The translations under genes and the position numbers were made by a program. A model generated the notes under the pieces. The model was not told the DNA's origin and made no database searches. It was given only the letters and a program-made list of their open reading frames with translations. Below, piece by piece: positions 37,599 through 45,876 of a stretch of 46,795 bases of DNA. Position 1 is the first letter of the stretch; each line of letters starts with the position of its first letter. The stretch is taken from assembly GCA_902773055.1 (NCBI GenBank), contig CACYCZ010000129.1, forward strand, positions 1 to 46,795, written 5' to 3'. The stretch comes from an uncultured Bacteroidales bacterium. GTDB taxonomy: Bacteria; Bacteroidota; Bacteroidia; Bacteroidales; Bacteroidaceae.

Positions 37599-37697
37599 TT
37601 TCGGTGTATGCTCCGGCGGTGTATGTGGCCGGCAGGATATGCCGGTTTGGGCAATGAAAAAAATGTTGGAGAATATATGATAACATTGGACTATATG

Positions 37698-39677
37698 ATG
37701 AAAAAATGGTTTTTGACGGTTGCCGTCATGTTTGCGGGGCTTTATGTAGGCGCCCGTGACGTAAGGCCTATGGCCTATGAATTGCTGCCGCCCGGAGATA
37801 TCCGTCCTCAGGGATGGCTGGGTCAGTTGCTGGAACGCCAGAAGAGCGGCCTGACAGGCAGGATGGACGAGGTATATCCCCAGGTGATGGGGCAGCGCAA
37901 CGGTTGGCTGGGCGGTGACGGCGACCAGTGGGAGAGAGGACCCTATTGGATTGACGGCCTGCTTACACTGGCTTACATGATGAACGACAAGACCCTGCAG
38001 AAAAAGGTGCAGCCCTGGATTGAATGGAGCATCGCCCATCAGCGGGCTGACGGTTTCTTTGGCCCAGACAAGGACTATCCGGCCGAACCGGGTCTGCAAC
38101 GCAATAACGCCCATGACTGGTGGCCCCGCATGGTCATGCTGAAAATCATGCGTGACTACTATGAGGCTACGGGCGACGAGCGCATCATTTCGTTCCTGCA
38201 AAAATATTTTGCCTACCAGCTGAAAACGCTTCCCGACAAACCTCTGGGCAACTGGACCTTCTGGGCTACCTACCGGGCATGCGACAATATGTCGGTAGTA
38301 TTGTGGCTTTACGACCGGACCCACGAAGAATGGCTGCTGGAACTGGCTGACCTGCTCCACAGGCAGGCGTTTGATTTTACCGGCTACTTTGAGCAGGAGG
38401 GAGTGAGCAAGTTGAGGTCTATCCACTGTGTCAATCTGGCTCAGGGCCTCAAAGAACCTGTTGTCTACTGGCGCTGTGACCCGAAGGACCGCTATATTGC
38501 TGCCGTAGACAAGGGGTTGGAGGACATACGCCGCTACAACGGTTTCCCCAACGGCATGTATGGCGGTGACGAAGCCCTGCACGGCAACAATCCGCTGAAC
38601 GGCTCAGAGCTGTGCAGTGCCGTGGAGCTGATGTATTCAATGGAGGAGATGATGCGCACCACGGGGCGGTGCAGCTATGCCGAATATTTGGAAAAGGTGG
38701 CCTACAATGCCCTGCCGACACAGATAACAGATGATTTTATGGGGAAACAATACTACCAACAAGTCAATCAGGTTATCGTGAAATCGGGCCACGGGCACAA
38801 CTTTGACCAGAAGCAGGAAGGAACGGCGCTCGACTACGGCATACTGAGCGGCTATCCCTGCTGTCTGAGCAATTTTCATCAGGGATGGCCCAAGTTTGCC
38901 CGTAACCTGTGGCTGAAGAATGCCGGCGGCGGGCTGACGGCACTCGTGTACGCTCCGTCGGCAGTGACGACCGGGATAAAGGGAAAGACAGTCACCGTAA
39001 CGGAGGAGACGATGTATCCGTTTGAAGAAAGAATCATGATGAAAATCAGTATCAGGGAGAAAGGCAATGTGACCTTCCCGCTTGAAGTGCGCATACCGTC
39101 ATGGTGTCAGGCCCCCGTTGTGAAAGTCAACGGAGCACCATGCAGCGTGGCAGCGGGAGCAGACCACTTCACTATAGACCGTCCCTGGAAGACAGGCGAC
39201 AGCGTGGAACTCTCGTTCCCCATGAGCGTCAAGACATCACGATGGTATGAAAACAGTCTCTCGGTGGAACGAGGCCCGTTGGTCTATGCCCTTCGCATTG
39301 AAGAGAACTGGGTGAAGAAAACCTATGATGAAGATATCAGCCGGAGACACGGTAAGGAGGCCTGGGAAGTCTATCCCGCAACATCGTGGAACTATGCCCT
39401 GATAGAGAAGAAGGATATGGCCGGTCAGTTTGAGGTCAAGATAGACGGGCAGAAAATGCGTTCCGGCATTTACCCCTGGAGTCTGGAAGGCACCCCGATA
39501 GAGCTGACGGCTCCGGCCAAGGAAGTATCTTTCTGGAAACTCTATGACGGGCACGAGGCAGGTCCCTTGCCTTTCAGCCCGATTCTGTCGCTGAGAGACG
39601 TACCAGTCACGACAGTGCGCCTTGTTCCTTACGGATGTACGACGCTCAGGATAGCAGAGTTCCCGACCGCCTATTGA
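37698..39677 (+). CDS. GH127-family (DUF1680) beta-L-arabinofuranosidase-like enzyme
   Basis: 659 aa from ATG 37698, which gives a signal peptide (MKKWFLTVAVMFAGLYVGA). ATGs at 37677 and 37695 are alternatives. The all-alpha barrel region carries GDEALHGN (Glu292, candidate acid/base), GSELCS (Glu304, Cys306) and YPCCLSNF (Cys388, Cys389). These match the spacing of the zinc-bound Glu-Cys-Cys-Cys site of the GH127 prototype HypBA1, where the first Cys of the CC pair is the nucleophile. A C-terminal beta-sandwich (about 470 onward) completes the fold. The enzyme probably acts on arabinofuranosides outside the cytoplasm. No other arabinan genes are adjacent. Confidence 0.9.
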   Translation: MKKWFLTVAVMFAGLYVGARDVRPMAYELLPPGDIRPQGWLGQLLERQKSGLTGRMDEVYPQVMGQRNGWLGGDGDQWERGPYWIDGLLTLAYMMNDKTLQKKVQPWIEWSIAHQRADGFFGPDKDYPAEPGLQRNNAHDWWPRMVMLKIMRDYYEATGDERIISFLQKYFAYQLKTLPDKPLGNWTFWATYRACDNMSVVLWLYDRTHEEWLLELADLLHRQAFDFTGYFEQEGVSKLRSIHCVNLAQGLKEPVVYWRCDPKDRYIAAVDKGLEDIRRYNGFPNGMYGGDEALHGNNPLNGSELCSAVELMYSMEEMMRTTGRCSYAEYLEKVAYNALPTQITDDFMGKQYYQQVNQVIVKSGHGHNFDQKQEGTALDYGILSGYPCCLSNFHQGWPKFARNLWLKNAGGGLTALVYAPSAVTTGIKGKTVTVTEETMYPFEERIMMKISIREKGNVTFPLEVRIPSWCQAPVVKVNGAPCSVAAGADHFTIDRPWKTGDSVELSFPMSVKTSRWYENSLSVERGPLVYALRIEENWVKKTYDEDISRRHGKEAWEVYPATSWNYALIEKKDMAGQFEVKIDGQKMRSGIYPWSLEGTPIELTAPAKEVSFWKLYDGHEAGPLPFSPILSLRDVPVTTVRLVPYGCTTLRIAEFPTAY

Positions 39678-39721
39678 CGGCCGGGCTCCGTGAATAATAT
39701 TTGTCAAAAAAAATCCGCATT

Positions 39722-39755
39722 TTTGTTGCAGAATGAAAATATATATGTAATTTTG
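39722..39755 (+). promoter_or_regulatory. Promoter of the lysine operon
   Basis: TAATTTTG (39748-39755) with TTG at 39726-39728 (19-nt spacer) or TTTG at 39722 (22-nt spacer). The predicted start is near 39762, about 20 nt before the leader ORF. The -7 box is identical to that of the leu operon. Confidence 0.78.
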
Positions 39756-39780
39756 CACGCAAAATGATATTTATAGGACA

Positions 39781-39864
39781 ATGAAGTCTCGTTGGTATAA
39801 ACACAATGTGAAACAGGGTAAGAAACAGTCGGGCGGCGCGTTTCAGGTTGTGATGTATCTATAA
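39781..39864 (+). CDS. Lysine operon leader peptide
   Basis: 27 codons plus TAA. It has Lys at positions 2, 7, 11, 14 and 15 (AAG, AAA, AAA, AAG, AAA), five of 27 residues, with 14-15 as a tandem pair. The codons after Lys15 cover 39826-39861 and include TCAGGTTGT, the upstream half of the antiterminator. A ribosome paused at Lys14-15 (39820-39825) would leave this half free; one at the stop (39862) would cover it. The ORF is about 20 nt from the predicted transcription start and 59 nt before dapE. It is too short and too well placed to be coincidental, though translation has not been shown. Confidence 0.78.
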   Translation: MKSRWYKHNVKQGKKQSGGAFQVVMYL

Positions 39865-39896
39865 GACTAAAGGAATATGATAATAAGGCGACCTGA
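39843..39896 (+). promoter_or_regulatory. Lysine leader antiterminator
   Basis: TCAGGTTGT (39843-39851) pairs along all nine positions with GCGACCTGA (39888-39896), including two G-U pairs. It competes with the terminator for the GCGACC arm. Confidence 0.72.
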
Positions 39897-39915
39897 CAAG
39901 GTCGCCTTTATTTAT
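39882..39915 (+). terminator. Attenuator terminator of the lysine operon
   Basis: GGCGACC (39887-39893), loop TGACAA, GGTCGCC (39900-39906), then TTTATTTAT. It lies directly before the first operon gene, where a constitutive terminator would make no sense without antitermination. Confidence 0.85.
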
Positions 39916-39923
39916 ACAAAAAT

Positions 39924-40937
39924 ATGGACATACAATTATTCAAGGAGATACTCAGCATCGACTCTACTTCATCGCGCGAGGGGGAAATGGCACAGTTCCT
40001 GGCATCGCGGCTGAAGACGGCCGCAACTTCTGAAGTGAGGCTGATGCCAGTGGGAGACGGGACATATAACCTGATGCTGACGTGGGGGAGACCCAGGGTG
40101 ATGTTCTGCACACATATGGACACCGTCCCGCCCTTTATACCGCCAGTCTTTGAGGATGACCGTGTCAGCGGCAGGGGGACGTGTGACGCCAAGGGGCAGA
40201 TTATGGCCCTGTATGGGGCTTGTCTGGAACTTGAGCGGCGCGGCAAGAAGGATTTCGGCCTGTTGCTCCTCGCAGGAGAGGAAACGGGGTCGATTGGCGC
40301 AAAACATTTCAACCGAAGCGGCGAAGGGTGTGAATACCTTATCGTGGGCGAGCCTACCGACTGCAAAATGGCTTCGGCAGCCAAGGGCACAAAGTCTTTC
40401 CACCTGACCGTAGGCGGGAAAAGCTGCCATTCGGGCTATCCCGAAAACGGATGCAGTGCCGTGGAGACCTTCATGGACTTCATGAATGCTCTCAGAGGAC
40501 TGGATTTCGGGAGTGACCCGCTGCTCGGTGATACGACATGGAATGTGGGGAAACTGGTCAGCGACAATCCCAAGAATATCTTGAGCGATGACGTGCAGTG
40601 TGACATATATTTCCGCACGACATTTGCTACCGACAGCCATGTAGAGCCGAAGCTGAGGGAACTTATCGGCAGCAGGCCGGAATGGACCGGAAGGATAGGG
40701 CTGGAGGCTTTCGGTGGCGACTGCCCGAGCCGTTTCCTGACATTTGACGGTATGCCGGCAGCTCCCGTGGCATTCGGAAGCGATGCTCCGCAGCTGGCTC
40801 ATTTCAGCAAGAAGATACTGTGCGGGCCGGGTTCCATACTTGTGGCCCATACGGACAAGGAATATGTCATGCTGAGCGAAATAGAGCGAGCCACCCGGCT
40901 TTATCTGGATATGTATGAAAGAACAGAAGGAAAATAA
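39924..40937 (+). CDS. dapE: M20-family deacylase, probable succinyl-diaminopimelate desuccinylase
   Basis: 337 aa. Metal and catalytic residues are His64 and Asp66 (CTHMDTVP), Asp88 (GRGTCDAKG), Glu119-Glu120 (GEETGSIG), Glu143 (VGEPTDC) and His309 (VAHTDKEY), as expected for a dinuclear zinc M20 enzyme. A dimerisation lid lies around 160-250. It is shorter than standard DapE (~375 aa) and nearer the LysK/ArgE-like size. Substrate choice rests on operon context: it precedes lysC, dapB, dapA and dapD behind a lysine leader. An ArgE- or LysK-type activity cannot be excluded. Confidence 0.78.
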   Translation: MDIQLFKEILSIDSTSSREGEMAQFLASRLKTAATSEVRLMPVGDGTYNLMLTWGRPRVMFCTHMDTVPPFIPPVFEDDRVSGRGTCDAKGQIMALYGACLELERRGKKDFGLLLLAGEETGSIGAKHFNRSGEGCEYLIVGEPTDCKMASAAKGTKSFHLTVGGKSCHSGYPENGCSAVETFMDFMNALRGLDFGSDPLLGDTTWNVGKLVSDNPKNILSDDVQCDIYFRTTFATDSHVEPKLRELIGSRPEWTGRIGLEAFGGDCPSRFLTFDGMPAAPVAFGSDAPQLAHFSKKILCGPGSILVAHTDKEYVMLSEIERATRLYLDMYERTEGK

Positions 40938-40957
40938 TCAAAAAAACAGATACAGAA

Positions 40958-42325
40958 ATGATTGTAATGAAATTTGGAGGCACGTCGGTTGGCGGCTGCG
41001 AGGAAATCAGCCGCGTGGTTTCGATAGTGCGACAGAAATTGGACAGGAAGCCCGTAGTCGTTACCTCGGCGATGTCTAAAATGACCGATCTGCTTTACAG
41101 GATAGCGGACAGTGCAGAGAATCGTCAGGAAGAGGAAATGGAAAACTTGCTCAATGAGTTGAGAAGACATCATGTGGAGGTTGCCGAACATCTGCTGGTC
41201 AACAATGTTGATATCATGTTGGAGACAACATCGAGGTTGAATGAAATATGTGACGAGCTGGAATCTTTTACTAAGGCGATATGTGTCTTGGGAGAGTTGT
41301 CGGAGCGCAGCAGGGCACTTATCATCAGCAACGGTGAACTGCTGTCGTCTACAATCCTTGCCAGCACCATGAACGCCTCAGGCATCCGGGCCGTCTTGGT
41401 GGATGCCCGTAGAATGATAGTGACAAACAGCAACCACCTGAAGGCCGAACCCAATATAGCCGAAATAGAAAGCCGTGTTCCCCGGATGCTGGAATCAGAA
41501 TGTCAGGGAGCCGACGTCATCGTGACACAGGGATTCATAGCATCCAGTACGGATGGTGAACCGACGGTCTTGGGCCGGGGCGGGTCAGATTATTCCGCAT
41601 CACTGATAGCTATGGCCCTGAATGCAGAGGCGATAGAGATTTGGACCGACGTTGACGGTGTGATGACGGCTGACCCTAACAAGGTGAAAACGGCCAGACG
41701 GCTGGATAGGATATCGTTTGAAGAAGCTGCCGAAATGGCCCACTTCGGAGCAAAGGTGCTGCATCCGCTGACCATTGAGCCGGCAATTAAAAAGAATATT
41801 CCCATCTATGTGCTGAATTCCAAAAACCCAGCCTGCGAAGGGACGTCAATATTGAATAATGTCCATATCAGTGACGGAGTGAAGTCAATATCATACAAGG
41901 AGAATATTTTGGTAATCAATATCTTCTCAACCAAGATGATTAATGCTTCCGGCTTTTTGGGCAAGGTGTTTGACATCTTCAGCGACAACAAGGTATCAGT
42001 TGACTTGATCAGTACGTCGGAGGCCAATATCTCGGTAACCATTGATGACGGCCAGAACATCAGTAAGGTGCTGGAGGAACTGTCGTCGTTTGCGACCATA
42101 GAAGTGGACAGAGGAAAGGCCCAGATTTCCGTGGTGGGACAGAACCTTATCAATCATCCTGGTATGTTGGACAAGATATTCGCGCCGTTGGACAAGGAAC
42201 GGATTTTCATGGTTTCACAGGGGGCCTCCCTGATCAACTTGAGTTTTGTGGTTGACAAGGAGGCAATGGACTCATCGATAGAAGCAATCCACAATGCATT
42301 CTTTGGAACAGGAAAGGGGAAATAA
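40958..42325 (+). CDS. lysC: Monofunctional aspartate kinase
   Basis: 455 aa. MIVMKFGGTSVGG (1-13) is the kinase nucleotide/substrate motif. GRGGSDYSASLIAMAL and WTDVDGVMTADPNKVKTA follow in order. The C-terminal ~150 residues hold two ACT domains (for example INIFSTKMINASGFLGKVF, KAQISVVGQNL), the usual site of feedback inhibition. It makes aspartyl phosphate, the entry to lysine, threonine and methionine. Its place in a lysine-attenuated operon suggests a lysine-sensitive isozyme. It is 20 nt after dapE. Confidence 0.95.
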   Translation: MIVMKFGGTSVGGCEEISRVVSIVRQKLDRKPVVVTSAMSKMTDLLYRIADSAENRQEEEMENLLNELRRHHVEVAEHLLVNNVDIMLETTSRLNEICDELESFTKAICVLGELSERSRALIISNGELLSSTILASTMNASGIRAVLVDARRMIVTNSNHLKAEPNIAEIESRVPRMLESECQGADVIVTQGFIASSTDGEPTVLGRGGSDYSASLIAMALNAEAIEIWTDVDGVMTADPNKVKTARRLDRISFEEAAEMAHFGAKVLHPLTIEPAIKKNIPIYVLNSKNPACEGTSILNNVHISDGVKSISYKENILVINIFSTKMINASGFLGKVFDIFSDNKVSVDLISTSEANISVTIDDGQNISKVLEELSSFATIEVDRGKAQISVVGQNLINHPGMLDKIFAPLDKERIFMVSQGASLINLSFVVDKEAMDSSIEAIHNAFFGTGKGK

Positions 42326-42329
42326 GGCG

Positions 42330-43007
42330 ATGAAAATCTTTATTAGCGGATATGGCAAGATGGGCCATATGATAGAGGAAATATTGAGCAGGAGAGGCCT
42401 GACCTGTTCCGGCACGAGCGAGGATATCACTTCGGTTGACCCTGCTATTGCCAAAGAAAGTGTGTGCATCGATTTTACGATGCCTCAGGCCATACGCCGG
42501 AACTATGCTTTCCTGGCAGAGCATTTCAAGGCGGTGGTCATCGGGACGACCGGCTGGGATGATATCAGGGAAGATGTGGTCAGATGTTTTGAAGAGCACG
42601 GCACGACGATGGTATATTCATCTAATTTTTCAATAGGCGTGAATGTCTTTTTCAGGCTGATAGAAAAGTCGGCCAGCCTGTTGGGTCAGACAGGGGGCTA
42701 CATGCCTTATATCGAAGAAAAGCACCACTGTCATAAGCTTGACCGCCCGAGCGGGACGGCAAAGATGCTGGAAGACATTATCGTGGAGGAAATGGACATT
42801 CGCCCCGATATCGCCTCTGTCAGATGTGGTGAGATTCCCGGAATCCACAGCGTGGGGTTTGAAGGCATCAGTGACAGAATCACGCTGACCCATGAGGCCT
42901 TTTCCCGCGAAGGCTTTGCCGCAGGAGCGGTGGAGGCTGCTGTCATGGCCGACAGCCTGCCTGTGGGAGTATATAAATTTAAGGATATAATATTTAGAGC
43001 GCTTTAA
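42330..43007 (+). CDS. dapB: 4-hydroxy-tetrahydrodipicolinate reductase
   Basis: 225 aa from ATG 42330; a frame open from 42294 lies inside lysC and is rejected. ISGYGKMGHMIEE is the NAD(P) loop, GTTGWDD and YSSNFSIGVNVFF follow, and EEKHHCHKLDRPSGTAKML is the signature with catalytic His/Lys. It is shorter than E. coli DapB (273 aa), typical of Bacteroidetes forms. It starts 4 nt after the lysC stop and ends 3 nt before dapA. It reduces the DapA product with NAD(P)H. Confidence 0.95.
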   Translation: MKIFISGYGKMGHMIEEILSRRGLTCSGTSEDITSVDPAIAKESVCIDFTMPQAIRRNYAFLAEHFKAVVIGTTGWDDIREDVVRCFEEHGTTMVYSSNFSIGVNVFFRLIEKSASLLGQTGGYMPYIEEKHHCHKLDRPSGTAKMLEDIIVEEMDIRPDIASVRCGEIPGIHSVGFEGISDRITLTHEAFSREGFAAGAVEAAVMADSLPVGVYKFKDIIFRAL

Positions 43008-43010
43008 GCA

Positions 43011-43892
43011 ATGGGACATTTGAAATTTTCAGGGTGTGGAACAGCATTGGTAACACCCTTTAAGGATAACGGTGCTGTCGTAGATTATAATGCAATGGGC
43101 AAGCTTGTTGAACGCCAGATGGAGGCGGGAGTTCATTTCCTCGTCCCCCTCGGTACGACGGGTGAGACGCCTTGTCTGACAAGTGTGGAGAAAATCAAGT
43201 TGCTGCAGGTTACCAAGGAGTATGCCAAGTGTCCCATTGTCGTGGGAGGCGGTACCAACTCGTTGGCGCAGACAATAGAGAGTATGAGGCTTCTGGAGCC
43301 TTTTGGCCTGGATGCCTTCCTGATTGTCGTGCCCTATTACAATAAGCCGACGCAGAAGGGTCTGTACGAATATTTCAAGGCCGTATCTCAGGAAACCGAC
43401 AAGGACATCATTCTATACAATGTCCCGGGGCGGACCGGAGCCAATCTGGAGGCTGAGACCACCTTGATGCTGGCCGAGATAGACAATATCGTGGCCATAA
43501 AGGAAGCATCAGGGCGCTATGCCCAGATATCTCAGGTGATACGCAACAAGCCCGACAATTTCAGCGTTCTCAGTGGCAACGACGATGAAACGCTGTCGCT
43601 GATGGCCACTGGTGCCGACGGCGTCATCAGCGTGGCGTCCAATGTTGATCCCCACAGGATGGTTCAGCTTGTCGAGGCGCTTCGGTGCGATGATATGCCG
43701 ACGGCACGCAAGCTCCACTACCAGCTGATGCCTTTGTTCAAGAACTGCTTTGTTGAGAGCAACCCCATTCCGGCCAAGGCTGCCCTGGCGCAGTTGGGGC
43801 TGTGTGAAAACAGCTTGCGCCTGCCGCTTGTGCCCGCAACGGAGGAGACTATGTCACTGATGAAACAGACAATGGAGGAATTAGGCTTATGA
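43011..43892 (+). CDS. dapA: 4-hydroxy-tetrahydrodipicolinate synthase
   Basis: 293 aa, standard length. It condenses pyruvate with aspartate semialdehyde, the first lysine-specific step. PLGTTGETPCLT (about 45-56), YYNKPTQKGLYEYFKAV, ILYNVPGRTGANL (Tyr of the active site) and AIKEASGRYAQI with the Schiff-base Lys are all in order. SGNDDETLSLMATGADGVISV completes the barrel. The stop overlaps the dapD start. Confidence 0.97.
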   Translation: MGHLKFSGCGTALVTPFKDNGAVVDYNAMGKLVERQMEAGVHFLVPLGTTGETPCLTSVEKIKLLQVTKEYAKCPIVVGGGTNSLAQTIESMRLLEPFGLDAFLIVVPYYNKPTQKGLYEYFKAVSQETDKDIILYNVPGRTGANLEAETTLMLAEIDNIVAIKEASGRYAQISQVIRNKPDNFSVLSGNDDETLSLMATGADGVISVASNVDPHRMVQLVEALRCDDMPTARKLHYQLMPLFKNCFVESNPIPAKAALAQLGLCENSLRLPLVPATEETMSLMKQTMEELGL

Positions 43893-44662
43893 AAACCGAA
43901 AGAGATATCTTTGACCGTTTGTGCAGTGATTTGGAAAGCGGTGCTCTCCGTGTGGCCGAGAAGGTCGACGGAGAGTGGCAGGTTAATGTCAGTGTCAAGG
44001 AGTCAATCCTGGACGGTTTCCGTCTGGGCGTGCTGGCCGATATGAGCCAGGGGCAGTTTGCCTTCTATGACAAGGACACCATCCCCGTGCGTCAGTTTTC
44101 TGCTGGGAGCGGTGTGCGCATCGTGCCCGGCGGTACCAGCATACGTCGCGGTGCCTGTCTCGCACCGGGTGTCATCGTCATGCCCCCGTCCTATGTGAAC
44201 ATCGGGGCTTATGTCGACAGCGGCACGATGATAGATTCCCATGTCCTCGTGGGCTCGTGTGCCCAGATAGGGAAAAATGTCCACCTCTCTGCCGGCACCC
44301 AGATAGGCGGTGTGCTCGAACCTGTCGGTGCCATGCCTGTCATCATAGAGGACGGCGCCTTTGTGGGCGGCAACTGTGGTATCTATGAGGGTACCGTTGT
44401 CCGTGAGCGTGCCGTGATAGGTACGGGTGTCATCATCAACGGCTCCACTCCGGTATACGATGCCGTGAAGGGCGATTTCCTGCCGCGCCTTGACGGCGGT
44501 CGCATAGAGATTCCTTCGGGTGCCGTCGTCGTGGCAGGCAGCCGTCCCCTGAGACACGGAGGCCCGTCAGGGCAGGCTGTTCATATCTATTGTCCCGTCA
44601 TCGTGAAATATCGCGACGACAAGACGTCGGCATCGCTGACACTGGAGGAGCTGTTGCGGTGA
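43889..44662 (+). CDS. dapD: 2,3,4,5-tetrahydrodipicolinate N-succinyltransferase
   Basis: 257 aa. A short helical N-domain precedes a left-handed beta-helix (about 75-240) with VNIGAYVDSGTMIDSHVLVG, GSCAQIGKNVHLSAGTQIGG and VIIEDGAFVGGNCGIYEG. These are classic DapD motifs and set it apart from the acetylating DapH type. It uses succinyl-CoA to acylate the DapB product, committing the cell to the succinylase branch. It overlaps dapA by 4 nt and the aminotransferase by 4 nt, so the three are probably translationally coupled. Confidence 0.93.
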   Translation: MKTERDIFDRLCSDLESGALRVAEKVDGEWQVNVSVKESILDGFRLGVLADMSQGQFAFYDKDTIPVRQFSAGSGVRIVPGGTSIRRGACLAPGVIVMPPSYVNIGAYVDSGTMIDSHVLVGSCAQIGKNVHLSAGTQIGGVLEPVGAMPVIIEDGAFVGGNCGIYEGTVVRERAVIGTGVIINGSTPVYDAVKGDFLPRLDGGRIEIPSGAVVVAGSRPLRHGGPSGQAVHIYCPVIVKYRDDKTSASLTLEELLR

Positions 44663-45876
44663 GTACGCCGTTGTCAGTGTCATTCCCGGAAAGTTTCTTT
44701 TCCGATGACGTCCATTCCTTTTTCCGTTCCCCCGTCAGGGACATTTTCCGCAAGGTAGACCTCAGTGCCATCTGCTCCTTTGCCGGCGGCTATCCCTCGG
44801 CCGAGACCTTCCCGGTCTCCGCTCTGGAGTCGCTTGTATCAACGGTTATCAGGAAGTATGGTGCGCAGGCTTTTCAGTACGGGGCCACCCAGGGCGTGCC
44901 CGAGCTTCGCAGTGCGCTGGCCCGTCGCTACGGCGTCGGGGCCGATGAGGTCCAGGTAACCACCTCGTCCCAGCAGGGCATCGACGTCGTGACGCGCATC
45001 CTCGTCAATCCCGGCGATGTGGTCATAACCTCGGCGCCCACCTATCTGGGAGCCTTGCAGTCGTTTGCATCCTACCGTGCCGATGTCGTGGGAGTGACCC
45101 CCATTTCCGACGGACCCGCTCCGTTTGCCGTTTCCTGTGGCCGGGCGTTGGAGTCGTGCCAGGCATCAGGCCGGCGGGTAAAGATGCTCTATGTCATTCC
45201 CGATTTCCAGAACCCTTCGGGCGAGACCCTCTCGCTGGCCGAGCGCCGCGCGTTGGCCGACCTGGCCCGGAGACACAATATCCTTATACTTGAAGACAGC
45301 CCCTACAGGGAGTTGCGCTACGAGGGCGAACCACTGCCCACACTCTACAGCCTTTGCCCTGAGCAGGTTGTCCATCTGGGCTCCTTCTCCAAGATCTTCG
45401 CCCCCGGTTTCCGTCTGGGCTGGATGATGGGTCCAGCCCAGGTTCTCGACAAGGTCTACGTCTGCAAGCAGTCGCTCGACCTCTGTCCGCCGGTGCTCGA
45501 CCAGTATGTGGCAGCCGAATACCTGTCCTCGGGAGCCCTCGATGCCAACCTGCAGCATACCATAGCGCTCTACCGCAGCCGTCGCGACCGTTTCGACGAT
45601 CTGCTGCGCCGCTATATGCCGTCGGGGGTGACGTGGGCGAAGCCTCAGGGCGGCCTGTTCGTGTTTCTGACCCTTCCGCCCCATGTCGATACCGTGGGTC
45701 TGTACGACAGGGCGCTGTCGGCGGGCGTGGCCTATGTTGCCGGCAGTTTTTTCTATCCCGGCGGCATGACGGGGCGTAACACCATGCGGCTCAACTATTC
45801 GTTTATAGCACCCGACCGCATGGAGGAAGGCGTCAGGATACTTGCCGATGTCATCCGCCAGGCCATAGGGCAGTGA
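44659..45876 (+). CDS. Class I/II PLP aminotransferase, candidate N-succinyl-diaminopimelate aminotransferase
   Basis: 405 aa from a GTG start at 44659, overlapping the dapD stop as GTGA; the open frame extends upstream into dapD. It resembles the LysN/2-aminoadipate and MocR-like aminotransferase subgroup. AFQYGATQGVPELRSAL, VTTSSQQGIDVVTRIL and YVIPDFQNPSGETLS precede LGSFSKIFAPGFRLGWM with the PLP Lys, and the end has RNTMRLNYSF. The operon supplies DapE-like, LysC, DapB, DapA and DapD, but no other DapC candidate. I therefore propose it transaminates N-succinyl-2-amino-6-oxopimelate; activity is inferred from context. Confidence 0.85.
   Translation: MSTPLSVSFPESFFSDDVHSFFRSPVRDIFRKVDLSAICSFAGGYPSAETFPVSALESLVSTVIRKYGAQAFQYGATQGVPELRSALARRYGVGADEVQVTTSSQQGIDVVTRILVNPGDVVITSAPTYLGALQSFASYRADVVGVTPISDGPAPFAVSCGRALESCQASGRRVKMLYVIPDFQNPSGETLSLAERRALADLARRHNILILEDSPYRELRYEGEPLPTLYSLCPEQVVHLGSFSKIFAPGFRLGWMMGPAQVLDKVYVCKQSLDLCPPVLDQYVAAEYLSSGALDANLQHTIALYRSRRDRFDDLLRRYMPSGVTWAKPQGGLFVFLTLPPHVDTVGLYDRALSAGVAYVAGSFFYPGGMTGRNTMRLNYSFIAPDRMEEGVRILADVIRQAIGQ

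Follow-up and report, generated by a model that had tools for sequence, protein, structure and literature searches.

A probable lysine leader-peptide attenuator ahead of a dapE-lysC operon, and analogous leaders at aspartokinase genes in Bacteroidales

The dapE-lysC operon and its leader region

The window, i.e. the whole stretch of DNA analysed here (46,795 nucleotides from an uncultured Bacteroidales bacterium), carries an operon of six same-strand genes at 39924-45876 in the order dapE-lysC-dapB-dapA-dapD-aminotransferase, which we take to cover a good part of the succinylase pathway that yields diaminopimelate and lysine. These genes, together with the one directly upstream, are listed below.

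37686-39677: GH127-family beta-L-arabinofuranosidase-like gene, directly upstream
39924-40937, + strand: dapE-like succinyl-diaminopimelate desuccinylase of the M20 peptidase family, first gene of the operon (Pfam PF01546, PF07687; dapE role assigned from the operon)
40958-42325, + strand: lysC, aspartokinase (Pfam AA_kinase, ACT)
42294-43007, + strand: dapB, dihydrodipicolinate reductase (Pfam DapB_N, DapB_C; the listed ORF overlaps lysC, and an inner start is possible)
43011-43892, + strand: dapA, dihydrodipicolinate synthase (Pfam DHDPS)
43889-44662, + strand: dapD-like tetrahydrodipicolinate N-succinyltransferase (Pfam THDPS_N_2, Hexapep)
44662-45876, + strand: class I/II aminotransferase, with a probable DapC role (Pfam Aminotran_1_2)

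The leader ahead of dapE (39722-39924) contains the following features.

39726-39728, + strand: TTG, 19 nt upstream of the TAATTTTG box
39748-39755, + strand: promoter -7 box TAATTTTG, fitting by sequence TAnnTTTG, the Bacteroidota primary-sigma type
39781-39864, + strand: Lys-rich leader ORF MKSRWYKHNVKQGKKQSGGAFQVVMYL, 27 codons, with Lys at 2, 7, 11, 14 and 15
39802-39814, + strand: segment 1 core, CACAA (39802-39806) and AAAC (39811-39814), complementary to segment 2
39820-39825, + strand: tandem Lys codons 14-15 (AAG AAA), the proposed stall site, 16 nt ahead of segment 2
39842-39852, + strand: segment 2 TTCAGGTTGTG, the antiterminator 5' half, with 9 pairs from 39843-39851
39885-39896, + strand: segment 3, comprising the antiterminator 3' half (39888-39896) and the terminator 5' arm (39885-39894)
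39899-39915, + strand: segment 4 AGGTCGCCTT (39899-39908) and imperfect U tail TTTATTTAT, the terminator 3' part

The upstream TTG presumably has a promoter role. TAnnTTTG is given as the -7 consensus in passages of an earlier study (PMC9723704). Within codons 21-24 of the ORF, TCAGGTTGT (39843-39851) is able to pair with GCGACCTGA (39888-39896) over 9 pairs to form an antiterminator, and this 2:3 duplex has an energy of -13.2 kcal/mol compared with a mean of -9.0 in dinucleotide shuffles (p=0.042). Segment 3 also supplies the 5' arm of the terminator, AAGGCGACCT/AGGTCGCCTT (39885-39894/39899-39908), a 10-pair stem of -17.6 kcal/mol that was missed by a scan requiring TTTT because the U tail is imperfect. 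Segment 2 can furthermore pair with earlier ORF sequence in a 1:2 hairpin, the minimum-energy fold of which spans 39785-39868, and the leader has the full 1:2 / 2:3 / 3:4 pairing set. A preliminary description of this DNA had claimed a promoter and a 27-codon ORF in which Lys occurs five times, twice in tandem at 14-15, along with a 9-pair antiterminator whose 5' half lies in codons 21-24, and a terminator sharing one of its arms just before dapE; we recovered them at 39748-39755 (TAATTTTG), at 39781-39864, at 39843-39851 with 39888-39896, and as a stem at 39885-39908 with an imperfect U tail, dapE starting at 39924. The 1:2 protector hairpin inside the ORF was absent from that description.

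Lys accounts for 5 of the 26 codons after the start, as against 2.25 in stop-free shuffles (p=0.005). Such single-sequence statistics are modest for the window leader, and it is conservation that provides the strong evidence.

Conservation of the leader and the proposed mechanism

The same leader precedes the same dapE-lysC genes in two further genomes of the genus (G001 and G014), and the TAATTTTG box is again found ahead of both. Identity among the three genomes is 30-45% at fourfold sites of lysC and 77-81% for the LysC proteins, while every column of GTTTCAGGTTGTG in segment 2 (13/13) and of AGGCGACCTGA in segment 3, the terminator 5' arm (11/11), is invariant, as are 8 of the 10 columns of segment 4 and 18 of the 27 that make up leader codons 7-15. 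The remaining parts have drifted, with invariant columns numbering 2/15 in codons 2-6, 4/15 in codons 16-20 and 10/57 in the spacer. The three peptides (YKHNVKQGKK, NKHNDKQIKK and YKHNMKRMKK) have KHNxKxxKK in common, i.e. Lys 7, 11, 14 and 15 together with His8 and Asn9 are kept in all three, and positions 10, 12, 13 and 16 vary. This sharing, a synonymous AAG/AAA difference at the first Lys of the tandem pair, and the retention of segment 2 in G001 in another reading frame, with the stop codon inside segment 2, indicate that the upstream part of the leader is kept as codons and the downstream part as RNA. Pairing may additionally constrain His8, Asn9 and some of the Lys bases.

The 9 core 1:2 pairs can form in all three leaders, without covariation, and segment 2 is paired upstream in each of the three minimum-energy folds, G001 using another partner for GTTTC. 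The U tail is longer in G001 and G014 than in the window, and the G001 terminator has one A-A mismatch. The preliminary description had proposed looking in relatives for conserved Lys codons, for the alternative pairing and for compensatory changes in both hairpins. The four Lys positions are conserved in the three genomes and the alternative pairing is retained in G001 and G014. As to compensatory changes, the expectation held in part: terminators of analogous leaders in other families covary (below), and none are visible in the three homologous leaders because their pairing arms are nearly invariant.

These comparisons bear on the proposal that the hairpin is the terminator of the upstream GH127 gene and the ORF a chance occurrence, with no regulation. 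The terminator lies about 210 nt beyond the end of the GH127 gene (39677), and A-rich DNA readily yields K-rich ORFs. However, the leader is kept in both genomes despite other upstream genes (read from translations, excinuclease-like in L005 and acetyltransferase-like on the other strand in L008), the sequence before the promoter aligns at shuffle level in two of the three pairs (G000-G001 being slightly above, 14 against a shuffle maximum of 13), and the leader before dapE has not drifted freely in relatives. We regard this explanation as extremely unlikely.

A metabolite riboswitch, either an L-box or an undescribed lysine aptamer, acting on the terminator as its platform with the ORF incidental, would also account for an alternative terminator/antiterminator pair in the leader, and the L-box is the usual lysine RNA switch. 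Against this, cmscan of 38000-42000 found nothing in Rfam at E<=1, and the seven weak Rfam matches at seven leader loci, both homologous ones included, were none of them the lysine riboswitch. All lie far under gathering scores, the best being Thr_leader (E 0.11) near the G490 leader described below, and they include MicX on the other strand of L006. Over both the 38000-42000 region and the seven leader loci there was no match at E<=1 to the L-box lysine aptamer (RF00168) or to a T-box (specifier loop, T-box sequence). Moreover, only 128 nt separate the leader ATG from the end of the terminator stem, most of this is ORF, and the conserved columns are the Lys codons and the pairing arms. A riboswitch is thus very unlikely in our judgement.

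Our preferred reading, which we consider very probable, is that the leader is a trp-type ribosome-mediated transcription attenuator that reads charged tRNA-Lys; translation, stalling, termination and the response to lysine are inferred from its layout. When Lys-tRNA is low, a ribosome would stall at the Lys codons, above all 14-15, and cover segment 1, so that segment 2 would be available for pairing with segment 3 while the latter is being transcribed. This pairing would prevent the terminator from forming, and dapE-lysC-dapB-dapA-dapD-aminotransferase would be transcribed. With enough Lys-tRNA the ribosome would carry on to the stop codon, which lies at segment 2 or shortly beyond it, and RNA polymerase would be halted before dapE by the 3:4 terminator. 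Without translation the 1:2 hairpin would sequester segment 2, making termination the default. The leader probably lets the cell switch on its lysine-making cluster when lysine is short.

When folding was limited to the RNA that should remain accessible with a ribosome waiting on the last Lys codon and polymerase just beyond segment 3, the antiterminator was predicted in the window (-14.6 kcal/mol), G001 (-17.7 kcal/mol) and G014 (-17.3 kcal/mol), and it disappeared in all three once the ribosome was moved to the stop codon. The antiterminator was obtained in 6 of the 7 leaders tried in this way; the exception was G490, whose segment 2 is partly covered when the ribosome occupies the last Lys codon. 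Between the last Lys codon and the start of segment 2 lie 15-16 nt in the window, G001 and G014 and 1-16 nt in the analogues. At equilibrium the terminator fold of the window (-23.5 kcal/mol for the segment 2-4 stretch, -17.6 alone) is favoured over the 2:3 fold (-14.6), and antitermination must therefore be kinetic.

The homologous leader is rare. An exact pattern search found it in 3 of 399 family genomes, with 0 among the matches listed for the reversed control, and a covariance model of the three leaders gave three true matches in 251 family genomes (E 6e-23 to 6e-26). Sixteen weak matches to the model (best 1.6e-4) were also returned; 13 were inspected by eye and rejected as gene-end terminators or AT-rich DNA with no Lys leader, L051, L057 and L058 falling outside these 13. 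The operon is rare as well: homologues of dapE occur in 4 of 19 genus genomes and 4 of 61 relatives (both E<=1e-30), in 4 of 399 family genomes (E<=1e-40), in 1 of 148 genomes of the order (1e-50, the own genome) and in 2 of 296 of the phylum (1e-40, the own genome and one at 34% identity), and these searches, from genus to phylum, did not find the origin of the operon. The other 15 of the 19 genus genomes, which have no dapE match at E<=1e-30, are in many cases incomplete. The fourth dapE genome (G010) has the operon, with dapE 55% and lysC 61% identical, and lacks the homologous leader. At about 1400-1460 of its locus (L007), the stretch separating a TAATTTTG box from dapE contains a 15-codon ORF, MQLCFPSSPSGAKKH, that ends in KKH, and inspection by eye showed no terminator. 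A related lysC-dapB-dapA from another family of the order (L129, G044:C15:1-3060; lysC 61% identical) sits at a contig end with no readable leader.

Analogous leaders ahead of lysC in other Bacteroidales

We surveyed the DNA upstream of monofunctional lysC at 78 loci (12 from the genus and 66 from the order), a design that would miss operons in which lysC is not first; the partial lysC matches G482:C53, G540 and G454 were left out. Two truncated loci, L142 and L160, were also set aside. A filter whose limits were set after the output had been seen (stem of at least 9, terminator start no more than 75 nt from the gene, terminator preceded by an ATG ORF) was passed by 7 of the 78 loci, all with a Lys-, Met- or Thr-rich peptide, and 71 had no such leader. 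The seven are as follows.

G490: Lys leader, MKKMKKYNKQKKDKTICRALLF
G520: Lys leader, MMKTKTYKMKVKKVNIQLP
G054: Lys leader, MKGLKNIVKIKQVKRIKPVYKRM
G482: Lys leader, MFNSKQTVIISKKYKHYVFWVLLL
G060 (L086, - strand): Met/Lys leader, MSNKQFFMQTICMKQMVITMKKQTHKQAVDALIKSA, 2:3 pairing p=0.008
G474 (L085): Met/Lys leader, 2:3 pairing p=0.004
G503 (L101, G503:C12, - strand): Thr leader, MIFTGTGNTTVTTGTGTLLYRGCCAL, terminator before one of two lysC-like genes, 2:3 pairing p=0.062

Dual-product sensing is possible for the two Met/Lys leaders. At G545 (L121) such a hairpin precedes lysC with no ORF. As a control, 1 of 50 loci of fused aspartokinase-homoserine dehydrogenase (thrA) passed the filter, without a telling peptide, and under a looser filter 2 of the 50 had a K-rich ORF and a 7-bp stem, one of them being the own genome's thrA; the truncated loci L030, L033, L035 and L036 and some further thrA places are excluded from these controls. 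The own-genome case (L002, G000:C142, - strand) has a 25-codon ORF, MAKQNRKKNIYQPQHFRGKQLAMQA, and a weak 7-bp hairpin about 170 nt before the fused gene, and is probably background.

In family f93 a Lys leader was found at 6 of the 7 loci read (those of G490 and G846 being near-identical, and G841 having none), and in family f19 at 7 of 17, G857 included, with the nine loci of genus g303 and G855 lacking it. The g303 loci (L144-L151 and L158) have no Lys-rich ORF. They show a TAnnTTTG box near -135 and a GC-rich, imperfect hairpin accompanied by a T run, and may have lost or altered the leader. The analogues ahead of lysC in f93, f19 and G482 follow the same plan as the window leader with a sequence other than its own.

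Covariation was assessed in alignments of five sequences for each family, G520 and G857 being left out of one of them. All 60 cells of the 12-pair f93 terminator are paired, with two-sided changes at three pairs and a covariation score reached by 7 of 500 shuffles, and all 50 cells of the 10-pair f19 terminator, with two-sided changes at two pairs and a score reached by 26 of 500. The 8-pair f19 antiterminator is paired in 97.5% of 40 cells, against 20-62% when slid, and has one two-sided change (116/500 shuffles). That of f93 is paired in 81.8% of 55 cells, against 25-58% when slid, with two-sided changes at three pairs (32/500 shuffles) and a covariation score reached by 88/500. With five sequences per set, covariation of the antiterminator is suggestive and falls short of proof.

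The terminators help to weigh a further explanation, that the ORF acts as a uORF through Rho or translational coupling and not through alternative hairpins. The imperfect U tail of the window would fit such a mechanism. The 10-pair terminator stem, the conservation of segment 2 as RNA whatever its reading frame and the covariation of the f93 and f19 terminators all argue against it, and we judge it very unlikely.

Of 18 leaders (near-identical G846 being left out), 12 have a 2:3 duplex stronger than in shuffles at p<0.05, the window, G001 and G014 among them, and the other six, G844, G847, G854, G520, G482 and G503, have p>=0.05; since the leaders were picked after being seen, these p-values describe the pairing and not its discovery. 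Across the 17 Lys-containing leaders there are 97 Lys codons in frame compared with 40 and 37 in the other frames. Taken singly, 6 of the 17 (7 of 18 with the Thr leader counted) are enriched at p<0.05 against dinucleotide shuffles, few reaching significance because Lys codons are A-rich; G001 has p=0.15 and G014 p=0.14. The reading of the preliminary description, a Lys attenuator, is supported by conserved Lys codons and alternative pairing in relatives, by covarying terminators and by a largely kept antiterminator in the analogues, and it predicts a response to lysine.

Implications and relation to known systems

Leaders ahead of aspartokinase thus carry Lys codons in the window genus, f93, f19 and G482, Met and Lys codons in G060 and G474, and Thr codons in G503. 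Tentatively, and with doubts that slightly outweigh our confidence, we propose that Bacteroidales control aspartokinase by recurrently evolved leader-peptide attenuators with swappable codons. If so, such leaders would take the part played in other phyla by the lysine riboswitch, and two aspartate-family end products at once would be sensed by the Met/Lys versions. A lysine-specific, translation-dependent attenuator would add a missing amino acid to the class, widen the class within a major order of gut and rumen bacteria, and suggest repeated gain or exchange of leader specificity at a single enzyme. The layout furnishes a compact sequence rule, open to searching and to direct testing: a promoter, an ORF with Lys codons, segment 2 close to the stop codon, and a terminator with a shared arm. 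What appears new, within the literature covered below, is the specificity for lysine, recurrent in Bacteroidales; the attenuation mechanism itself is known.

Lysine is a textbook case of riboswitch control, and the L-box binds the amino acid directly. T-box leaders for tRNA-Lys sense uncharged tRNA by direct binding, without translation; the window leader would share with them the sensing of tRNA charge, and differs in that no T-box match was found here at E<=1. The L-box (lysine) riboswitch RF00168 is described as controlling lysine genes in other bacteria in parts of two studies (PMC1262725, PMC2659441). Both it and the window leader stand at lysine genes, an L-box match at E<=1 being absent here. 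In passages of a 2005 comparison of other species, methionine and lysine genes are assigned to riboswitches, and those for histidine, threonine and phenylalanine to attenuators (PMC1262725).

In open-access full-text literature, a scope outside which most subscription journals lie, no lysine leader-peptide attenuator was among the matches listed, and within that literature the earlier suggestion that such a leader may be undescribed stands. For other Bacteroidota, leader-peptide attenuation has been inferred in Flavobacterium psychrophilum (PMC9723704, in part) and small ORFs in long 5' UTRs of Bacteroides thetaiotaomicron have been proposed to encode leader peptides (PMC7366714, in part); neither main text contains the word lysine. 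Passages on SEP5 of Sinorhizobium meliloti describe a suggested leader peptide that precedes an aspartate dehydrogenase gene and has six Thr codons and three for Lys (PMC10117765), and the attenuator structure of the window leader has no counterpart in those passages.

The closest likeness is to the trp-type attenuators (trp, his, leu, thr, ilv; Rfam Trp_leader, Thr_leader). The window leader is unlike these in its proposed lysine specificity, in its Bacteroidota promoter and in having no Rfam match at E<=1, and it shares with them a short ORF rich in the product amino acid, the 1:2/2:3/3:4 pairings and a terminator before a biosynthetic operon. Its 15-16 nt gap between Lys codons and segment 2 is, we take it, similar to that of trpL.
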